Shown here one piece after another: positions 60,507 to 62,863 of a stretch of 64,000 nucleotides of DNA (its first letter is position 1; each line of letters begins with the position of its first letter). Both the position numbers and the translations under genes were made by a program. This DNA comes from Gammaproteobacteria bacterium. GTDB taxonomy: Bacteria > Pseudomonadota > Gammaproteobacteria > Pseudomonadales > Pseudohongiellaceae. The DNA lies in NCBI GenBank assembly GCA_029253585.1, contig JAQWZF010000023.1:248001-312000 (forward strand), given 5' to 3'. A model generated the notes under the pieces. That model saw nothing but the letters and a program-made list of their open reading frames with translations, had not been told where the DNA came from and did not search any database.

Positions 60507-61345
60507 TTAGAGCTGATTGACCTCATAGCCCTTTTGCGCGAGTAAATCCAGCAGTCCATTCTCACCCACAATATGCGCCGCACCTACGTGAACAAACTCG
60601 GTGTCAGCATTCTGTCGATCTGTGGAATCCACTTCAGGTTTCGCTGATACAAAAGCGCATCATAGAGCTCCGGCGCTTCGGCCATCATATCTTCCACAAA
60701 CTACTCGGAAAGACCTGCCGCATCACCGGAACGCCAGACTCCTATCATGCTTTCCATAGCGTCACCGGTCTCTTCGAGGCCTTTCAATGAAAGCAGAATG
60801 AATTCGCTTTCGTTGCCCTCTCCCATTGCCGAAATGAAGCCTATCTGTTCCTGAGCGGTCTCTAATTGTCCCTCTGCTTTTCCGTCTCCCAGTGACCGAG
60901 TGTGAAAAAATGCATCTACATCCTGAGGCGTAAAACCCATGCTCTGAAATACCAATATCTGAAGCGTGCTCATCAAAAGGCCAAGTTAGAATTTCTCCAA
61001 CATGGCGATAGGCAAGCCAGCCGTAGCCGTATAGGCCTCGTCTCTTAGAACTGTTCGCAGCGATCTCTCCCCACTAGAGGTTAGCTGCTGCAACATCTGA
61101 GCCTGTACAGACAAGACATTCATCGAACCGATGTCGGTTTTGAAGATCAGCTCCGAGCTGGCCTGATAGGCCTCCTCGAATTCGCCTGGCAAGGGATAGT
61201 CTCCCGGACGTAGCAGGTGTACCGTTCCACCAAGGTAAAGGATGTTATCGGCCGAGCGCACTGACCAAACAGAGGTGTCTGCCAGCGCCTGGGATGTGCC
61301 TAGTAGTAGCACACAAACAAGAACAGCACAGGATCGAAGTTCCAT
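60507..61345 (-). pseudogene. Broken TraB/GumN family gene
   Basis: From ATG 61345 a signal peptide (LRSCAVLVCVLLLGTSQALA) and SADNILYLGGTVHLLRPGDYPLP begin a normal TraB/GumN protein. The frame meets TAA at 60988-60986 (within a probable FK-GLL position), continues to TAG at 60703-60701 (LSE*FVEDMMAEAPELYDALLYQRN), then shifts one base near 60620, with DTEFVHVGAAHIVGENGLLDLLAQKGYEVNQL to TAA 60509-60507. Three lesions make it a pseudogene. Intact members are about 280-300 residues. Confidence 0.88.
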
Positions 61346-61511
61346 TCTAATTAGATTTCCATTCTGGGCTCCTCGAAGCAAAATAATTCAACAACAGTGC
61401 CAGCCAATGACCAGGCTTTCTCTAGACTTGTTTTACACGACTACTCGTTAAAGGTAGCATGCCCGCAACATCCGTAAAAGCGAATCACTTCCACAAGCCG
61501 ATAAAGTATTT

Positions 61512-61910: not shown

Positions 61911-62284
61911 CTAGGCGAGATTTCCATACTCATCAAGCTCGGCGCTTTTACAAAGCTGAGATGTGACGTCTGTATCGAAATCGAGATCATCCTCTGGAGG
62001 CGATCAAATATCTTCGCAACTCTCGATGAATTCCAGGCCAATGTTTCGTTTGTCGACACGCGTAACTTGCACGGGTAATGCGGGCATTGATTCGTCCCAA
62101 CCCTCACCACGAATTTTGACATCCAGCTCCATCATGACAAAGAACTTCAGATCTTCGTCCAACTTGATCGATACGCCACTTACAGACATATCCTGAATAT
62201 CGCAGGTAGTCGTGCCTAGTAGTGGATGGCTAAGGCTAGCCAAAAATCCACCTCCACCAGTTTATGTCGTCTTCTTTTCCTCAT
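61911..62284 (-). pseudogene. Frameshifted PilZ-domain gene
   Basis: ATG 62284 begins MRKRRRHKLVEVDF, the R-x-x-x-R motif for cyclic-di-GMP, then goes out of frame at a run of five Ts near 62250-62254. One extra base would join it to LASLSHPLLGTTTCDIQDMSVSGVSIKLDEDLKFF, which carries the D-x-S-x-x-G PilZ motif. That frame stops at TGA 62006-62004 but is open for 30 more codons (SPPEDDLDFDTDVTSQLC) to TAG 61913-61911, suggesting a second lesion. Confidence 0.8.
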
Positions 62285-62586: not shown

Positions 62587-62615
62587 TTTACAGTTCCGAG
62601 AATGTGTTATATAAA
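62587..62615 (+). promoter_or_regulatory. Near-consensus sigma-70 promoter of a candidate RNA
   Basis: TTTACA (62587-62592), exactly 17 bases, then TATAAA (62610-62615). Each hexamer matches consensus at 5 of 6 positions. Expected start near 62622. The best-matching promoter I noted in the window. Confidence 0.75.
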
Positions 62616-62621
62616 ATCATC

Positions 62622-62863
62622 AGGCATTTGTTAGTAGTTCTAACAGGGGGGATTTGCTAACAATACTTGGCTACCCTGGCATTAAAAGGAGGTGATCCCA
62701 TCAATAGTCAATCTATTAAGGGAGCCTCCAGTTACTCTATCTAGGTTGTTTGCATAAGACTTACTCGGGTAATTGGAGGGGTTTCGCTGAAGCAATTCAC
62801 GATTCCTTTGCTCCCATAAGTAGTAAATCCCGCTATCGCGTTCAGTGATAGCGGGATTTTTTT
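62622..62863 (+). ncRNA. Candidate structured noncoding RNA, about 240 nt
   Basis: Between the promoter at 62587 and the terminator at 62825-62863 no convincing coding frame exists, but several stems do. TTGTTAG (62628-62634) can pair with CTAACAA (62657-62663), or GTTAG (62630-62634) with CTAAC at 62640-62644, so the two folds compete. A second structure pairs GGAGG (62688-62692) with CCTCC (62725-62729), TCCC (62696-62699) with GGGA (62720-62723) and AATAG (62703-62707) with CTATT (62713-62717). The motif AAGGAGGTGATCC (62686-62698) equals the complement of the 16S rRNA 3' end and lies in that stem. Several GGA motifs could bind CsrA/RsmA. It matches no RNA family I know. Confidence 0.65.
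62825..62863 (+). terminator. Intrinsic terminator of the candidate RNA
   Basis: AAATCCCGCTATCGC (62825-62839) pairs with GTGATAGCGGGATTT (62845-62859), a 15-bp stem with one G-T pair and a 5-base loop, followed by seven Ts (62857-62863). Oriented for plus-strand transcription. The strongest terminator I found in the window. Confidence 0.93.

Follow-up and report, generated by a model that had tools for sequence, protein, structure and literature searches.

We report here that a locus within the 64,000-nucleotide stretch of DNA analysed in this study (hereafter the window) is best read as a candidate free-standing, structured micro-mRNA of about 240 nt, in which ribosome entry would be gated by competing hairpins and by a weak start codon. 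We assign this reading a probability of about 0.6. Comparison of related loci shows the order of the predicted parts, namely a 5' pseudoknot, a Shine-Dalgarno (SD) sequence complementary to the full 3' tail of 16S rRNA, an ORF of mostly 13-15 codons, and a terminator. A sequence-only reading of the same DNA had proposed a structured, independently placed RNA with a sequestered SD sequence and mutually exclusive folds, which conservation among the related loci now supports. It had also held that the RNA contained nothing to translate, and this is contradicted by a conserved frame starting with AUC, AUU, AUA or AUG. The features of the locus, all on the plus strand, are as follows.

62587..62615, plus strand: promoter, read directly, with -35 TTTACA at 62587-62592, a 17-nt spacer and -10 TATAAA at 62610-62615.
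62630..62661, plus strand: pseudoknot stem S1, from covariation, pairing GTTAG 62630-62634 with CTAAC 62657-62661 and AGTTC 62636-62640 with GGATT 62650-62654.
62644..62678, plus strand: pseudoknot stem S2, from pair counts, pairing loop CAGGG 62644-62648 with CCCTG 62674-62678.
62686..62698, plus strand: extended SD sequence AAGGAGGTGATCC, an exact match to the complement of the 16S rRNA 3' tail.
62688..62729, plus strand: state A hairpin, from pair counts, pairing GGAGG 62688-62692 with CCTCC 62725-62729 and TCCC 62696-62699 with GGGA 62720-62723.
62700..62744, plus strand: short ORF, from stop conservation, indels, synonymous excess and distant AUG, with AUC start 62700-62702, 14 codons, (I/M)NSQSIKGASSYSI, and stop TAG 62742-62744.
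62703..62717, plus strand: extra arm of state A, weak outside the genus, pairing AATAG 62703-62707 with CTATT 62713-62717.
62720..62815, plus strand: state B domain, from the MFE fold, closed by GGGAGC 62720-62725 with GCTCCC 62810-62815.
62726..62778, plus strand: state B inner stem, from the MFE fold and covariation, pairing CTCCAGTTAC 62726-62735 with GTAATTGGAG 62769-62778, with the stop codon in the apical loop.
62825..62863, plus strand: intrinsic terminator, from folding, with a 15-bp stem 62825-62839 / 62845-62859 and a T run.

The promoter with its 17-base spacer and the 15-bp terminator were present as the earlier reading had described them. Both promoter hexamers match five of six bases each, the motif TTTAC-spacer-T[AT]TA[TA]A was found at 29 of 30 genus loci, and transcription would start at about 62621-62623. 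The RNA folds far below its shuffled versions (MFE fold, z -6.5, 0/200 shuffles), and the MFE fold contains the 15-bp terminator stem. A terminator-like element lies no more than 330 nt from the SD sequence at 99 of the 110 loci with enough sequence in the unthinned set. A strict promoter and terminator scanner called neither element at the locus, in our view because it demands a T at position six of the -10 hexamer and more T outside the stem. The locus is flanked on one side by a PilZ-domain ORF (62004-62243) and on the other by the end of an Lhr-type helicase gene, both of them encoded on the minus strand. Elsewhere, a gene that resembles, by eye, one for a LysR-type regulator adjoins the RNA downstream in locus L113 and upstream in L124. 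On the minus strand of the window at 60701-61381, a TraB/PrgY/gumN-type ORF (60986-61381) is directly followed by another ORF (60701-60976), and the pair looks like one gene split by a frameshift or an assembly error.

The homologues called for by the sequence-only reading were found both within the genus and in distant lineages. A DNA search of 58 related genomes located the locus in 31 of 37 genus genomes, own genome included, and in none of the 21 searched genomes of other families. Of 390 genomes of the order, 12 were matched by a covariance model (R1) based on 26 of the 30 genus loci retrieved: eight belong to the genus and four to one other family (f40), whose four loci were read individually. 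A pattern scan of named genomes, which demanded GGAGGTGAYCC, AT and GGGAGCC and left the third base after AT free, yielded at least 119 stretches, of which at least 100 were accepted as members; among the matches listed, 7 were rejected by hand and 12 were off-spacing, and all 19 were inspected. The members listed were largely metagenome-assembled genomes (MAGs) titled Gammaproteobacteria or Pseudomonadales, together with some from Pseudohongiella, OM182 and the K189A clade, and among the matches listed one member was titled Planktomarina and one SAR86. Single members carried the titles Calditrichaeota (L072), Bacteroidetes (L082), Rhodothermaceae (L090) and 'bacterium bin522' (L160), and such MAG titles can be wrong.

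A second covariance model (R2), built from 29 non-genus members, scored the window RNA at 8.7e-18 in a separate search. It matched 5 of 274 genomes of the class, own genome included, where L171, L172 and L173 are members and L174, lying within coding sequence, looks like a chance match. In the phylum to which the Rhodothermaceae record belongs it matched 5 of 345 genomes, among them the record itself (L178-L182), and in the order of L173 it matched 3 of 13 (L173, L183 and L184). In a search run without a positive control of its own, R2 found nothing in 9 genomes of two sister genera of the family or in the 6 genus genomes that the DNA search had missed. The RNA thus occurs in marine Pseudomonadales and a small number of other bacteria, with a patchy distribution across lineages. 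Within the genus, L008 (G017) is a decayed copy, in which the -10 hexamer, both the CCCTG and the CCTCC arm, and the stop of the ORF were lost together. In L018 (G025), the state B loop that follows the stop codon is longer by about 60-70 bases, with the rest of the RNA unchanged. Carriage on mobile elements was considered and set aside, as the pattern scan of viral contigs gave 0 stretches and blastn of the window RNA against plasmids found nothing.

No family of Rfam release 15 exceeded its gathering cut-off in the window, which is consistent with the unassigned status given to the RNA earlier. The best E-value below the cut-off belonged to RybB (20.3 bits vs 40), over the terminator stem, and among six related loci the only family found was a TPP riboswitch, elsewhere in L160. 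A tmRNA was also considered and rejected, since no match over the cut-off occurred in the window and the genome's own tmRNA lies elsewhere (G000:C17). A search of the open-licence PubMed Central literature found no description of such an RNA. Because there is no Rfam match over cut-off and a 14-codon ORF starting with AUC is unlikely to be called, annotation probably misses this RNA gene twice.

For counting, 144 loci, most of them from the matches listed by the pattern scan, were thinned below 93% identity to 79 non-redundant members, which are related to each other, so that counts among them are not counts of independent events. Of 146 loci, L074 and L167, without downstream sequence, were not used for thinning; the 79 include the degenerate L008 and leave out the late-recognised members L049, L050, L172, L182 and L184. 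The alignments are chosen subsets: A1 comprises 26 of the 30 genus loci, A2 29 non-genus members, and A3 21 of the 30 genus loci, omitting L003, L006-L008, L015, L017, L025, L030 and L031.

The 5' part is a predicted H-type pseudoknot, the stem S1 of which covaries. Both-side changes were seen in 5 of the 10 pairs of S1 in 21 genus sequences, and in all 9 pairs of the equivalent stems in 29 non-genus sequences. S2 was paired in 100% of cells in the genus set and in 93% in the others, and shows hardly any covariation because it is nearly invariant. Two alternative CTAAC partners had been proposed for GTTAG; the far one (62657-62661) is the arm of S1 that covaries, and the near one is not preserved as a complement in many relatives.

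Downstream of the pseudoknot, separated from CCCTG by a linker of 5 to 13 nt among the relatives, stands GGAGG within AAGGAGGTGATCC, the 13-base anti-16S sequence already recognised in the earlier reading. It has no other match in the window, even with two mismatches allowed; a 12-mer of it occurs once in the genome, and so does a reversed control pattern, so that, across a whole genome, chance could account for the motif by itself. All 13 bases are kept at 28 of the 30 similarity-found loci, the exceptions being L008 and L009. They are whole in 73 of the 79 non-redundant members, most of which were selected by a pattern containing GGAGGTGAYCC; since the pattern demanded these letters as well as AT and GGGAGCC, their conservation is best judged on the 30 similarity-found loci. 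The 16S tail was read by eye in G750 only, a genome that also holds member L179. This carrier of the RNA, from the phylum of the Rhodothermaceae record, has the standard anti-SD tail GGATCACCTCCTTT (L199). Bacteroidota rarely use SD sequences. The 16S gene was absent or partial in the 20 genus genomes searched, and the anti-SD match in the genus relies on the 16S tail being generally conserved, as stated in PMC5427494. The SD stretch is altered to GCGAGGTGATCC in L182 (G946) and to GGGAGGTGGTC in L184 (G1044), so complementarity to the 16S tail can be reduced in distant lineages. The RNA combines a long SD sequence complementary to the 16S tail with a conserved non-AUG start, as an extended-SD non-AUG site does.

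A codon AUC, AUU, AUA or AUG was found 7 nt past GGAGG in 79 of 79 members (ATC 61, ATT 11, ATG 6, ATA 1). At the 30 similarity-found loci, which were not selected for AT, this codon is always ATC, ATT or ATA; 28 of them have the stop at codon 15 and L014 has it at codon 16, and the degenerate L008 has lost it from that place. The first in-frame stop lies at codons 12-18 in 77 of the 79 and at codons 14-16 in 75, the other four being L171 (codon 12), L108 (18), L008 (19) and L042 (22); in the two shifted frames a stop at codons 12-18 was found in 33/79 and 0/79. The stops used are TAG (48), TAA (24) and TGA (7), and, judged by eye, the stop codon falls within or close to the apical loop of the stem that comes next. 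A conserved start with an in-frame stop, as in a uORF or attenuator leader, is present. The sequence-only reading had mentioned a TTG-started frame at 62667-62744, of which the frame and the stop were right and the start was wrong. Relatives preserve neither the length of the linker nor the frame upstream, and only 32 of 79 have an in-frame ATG, GTG or TTG ahead of the stop-free stretch.

Single-base variants in codons 2-6 were synonymous in 41 of 82 cases, with 18 expected, among 71 members with standard spacing, as against 17/75 (20 expected) and 23/67 (18 expected) in the shifted frames; as the sequences are related, this excess is a contrast between frames and not a probability. In distant members the start position holds AUG, giving MSNECINGASGGTC in L173, MSNRCMYRTSGGTC in L183, MSDMQKGASGVAC in L180, MSDMQKGASGDAC in L181, MSNGCIEVLTG in L171 and MSDMQKGASGAAC in L090, and, outside the 79, MSNGCINGASEGAC in L184 and MSDGCIEVLTG in L172. 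The peptides of L173, L184, L183, L180, L181 and L090 align with INSQSIKGASGYxx, and those of L171 and L172 align with it at the start only, GAS being absent. Of the 79, 69 are of the Pseudomonadales type, as judged by sequence, and AUG occurs in none of these, though the pattern allowed it.

The conserved form of the predicted peptide is (M/I)-[SN]-[NSD]-...-GAS-x(2-4), and in Pseudomonadales-type members its final 2-4 residues are freely variable. GAS is encoded by GGC GCT TCT in L173 and by GGA GCT TCT in L184, against the usual GGA GCC TCC, and L049 has a synonymous GGC in it. Part of the conservation of the ORF is at the RNA level, because GGA GCC TCC is also needed for pairing. Indels keep the frame: L090 and L082 are one codon shorter. 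L050 carries an additional base ahead of the start and an additional codon within the ORF; read from the fixed start position it is out of frame, but an AUU one base further downstream opens a frame that runs through to TAG (INSPIAIKGASRVAS). A subgroup (L030, L031, L043, L046, L108 and L153) has GCCTTT for GCCTCC, thus GAF for GAS; here GGAGG could pair with CCTTT via two G-U pairs, or AAAGG could replace GGAGG. Stop conservation, the synonymous excess, the distant AUG and the frame-keeping indels together are good evidence that the predicted frame is real and that AUC, AUU or AUA serves as its start in the lineage of the window. AUC is normally a very poor start codon, IF3 normally rejects such a start, and the IF3 gene starts with AUU.

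Two predicted folds compete for the C-rich arm inside the ORF, CCTCC being the partner of the SD sequence in state A and of a downstream segment in state B. The GGAGG/CCTCC and TCCC/GGGA pairings of state A, two parts of a three-part hairpin proposed earlier, hold in all cells of the 29 chosen non-genus sequences and in 188 of 189 cells of the 21 genus sequences (without the divergent L008, L030 and L031). The third part, AATAG/CTATT, held less well, with 97% of cells paired in the genus set and 73% outside the genus. The covariation that had been suggested as a check on this hairpin lent it no support; positions were invariant or changed on one side only, so covariation speaks neither for nor against state A. 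L171-L173, L183 and L184 either lack the CCTCC partner or have it in a changed form. In state B, both-side changes were seen in 3 of 10 pairs of the inner stem in the 21 genus sequences and in 3 of 7 in the 29 others, and the closing stem is invariant in the former and shows one-sided changes or mismatches in the latter.

Energies were computed over the stretch from the SD sequence to the closing stem, with L072, L180 and L181 excluded because state B was misplaced in them. State B lay 0.6-4.8 kcal/mol below state A in 23 of 23 Pseudomonadales-type members computed, with the pseudoknot ignored and without a shuffle control, and in L160 state A lay below state B by 1.0 kcal/mol. A rougher calculation used a fixed 125-nt stretch, which clips the 3' domain of long members, and took as B the best fold with GGAGG unpaired; it placed the two states within 3.7 kcal/mol of each other in 21 of 22. 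In it, A came out 1.5-3.7 kcal/mol below B in L072, L160 and L179-L181, and B 6.8 below A in L173. A switch needs conserved alternative folds of similar energy, such as those computed here, and the RNA may switch between them.

We propose that, during transcription, the SD sequence would first pair with CCTCC inside the ORF (state A), and the ribosome would be shut out. Once the 3' domain is completed, or a 30S subunit captures the SD sequence, CCTCC would move to its downstream partner (state B), upon which ribosomes could gain access and begin translation, if only weakly, at the near-cognate codon, under surveillance by IF3. The 13 bases that match the 16S tail would support initiation at a start codon normally rejected by IF3, and the product would be a conserved peptide of mostly 13-15 residues. 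A close precedent comes from Staphylococcus aureus, where extended SD sequences are reported to guide initiation at AUU and AUA codons (PMC13009471). Selection would most likely act on translation of the peptide, set by the balance of the hairpins and by the weak start; the peptide is favoured as the carrier of function because of the synonymous excess and because GAS is kept independently of its codons.

Among the alternatives, the strongest holds that the RNA acts by occupying ribosomes: a full-tail SD sequence with a poor start would park 30S subunits, and the ORF would only release them, so that translation would be affected through ribosome binding and not through a peptide, as for SprF1. 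The 13-base match, which goes beyond what an SD sequence needs, the restriction to AUH and never AUG in the 69 Pseudomonadales-type members, and the closeness of the pseudoknot to the SD sequence fit this idea, and SprF1 is described as binding ribosomes by a purine-rich stretch and attenuating initiation (PMC8938821). The synonymous excess and the retention of GAS in differing codons, however, point to selection on the peptide, distant members do use AUG, and a parked 30S subunit would have no need of a conserved stop. We regard ribosome occupancy as unlikely. Less likely still is a dual-function base-pairing sRNA, in which the switch-exposed CCTCC and GCTCCC would pair with the SD regions of other mRNAs and the ORF would be secondary. 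The C-rich arms are indeed conserved and swap partner between states, and the RNA stands alone in differing gene contexts, but the internal partners of both arms are conserved as well.

We give very little credence to two further readings. A leader or attenuator of a neighbouring gene would suit the 18 loci at which the next downstream ORF (>=100 aa) lies on the same strand, among the 93 with enough sequence of 116 unthinned loci; at the other 75, however, that ORF is convergent, neighbour gene families vary from one group of loci to another, and a complete terminator follows the RNA. As the downstream ORF is mostly convergent and the neighbour families vary, the RNA is not a leader at most loci. 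A sponge for CsrA/RsmA, proposed on account of several GGA triplets in the sequence, is similarly remote. RsmY, RsmZ and CsrB carry GGA in repeated hairpin loops, whereas the conserved GGA triplets here sit, by eye, in the SD sequence or in pairing helices, no Rfam family exceeded its cut-off, and nothing specific speaks in favour of such a sponge.

Beyond the preferred reading of a gated micro-mRNA, a broader and rather speculative idea is that these RNAs are cross-phylum, free-standing riboregulators. Loading of the 30S subunit on the full-tail SD sequence, checked by IF3 at an obligatory AUC or AUU, would be the input, and the RNA would sense the status of free 30S subunits or initiation factors, flip between near-equal folds and emit a micropeptide. 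We consider this improbable. To our knowledge, purposeful conservation of a non-AUG start is known for few ORFs. A natural comparison of AUC and AUG between lineages, a pair of hairpins and a full match to the 16S tail come together here on one small molecule, so that the roles of IF3, the extended SD sequence and the RNA switch could be tested on one RNA. The candidate peptide, of about 11-15 residues, would moreover be kept between distant bacteria.

Several known systems share parts of this arrangement. In dual-function sRNAs of the SgrS type, a structured sRNA encodes a small protein, and the combination of a structured sRNA locus with a short ORF is alike here, whereas the start is near-cognate and no Rfam family exceeded its cut-off. 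SprF1 and other ribosome-associated non-coding RNAs, as presented in PMC8938821, resemble the RNA in being small and expected to meet the small subunit via a purine-rich stretch, but SprF1 is an antisense antitoxin, and the account of it in that source mentions neither a conserved ORF nor a pseudoknot. The odc1 element, as described in PMC8632094, combines an 11-residue uORF, a pseudoknot and a sequestered ribosome binding site, three features also predicted here; odc1, however, precedes a main ORF, whereas the present RNA ends in a complete terminator and is usually followed by a convergent gene. The extended-SD sites of S. aureus (cvfC1 with AUU, ccpN with AUA, and the IF3 gene), as reported in PMC13009471, likewise place a long SD duplex beside a start of the AUU/AUA type. 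Those sites start ordinary genes, whereas the start described here would open an ORF of 13-15 codons on a free-standing RNA, with a pseudoknot and a competing anti-SD hairpin.
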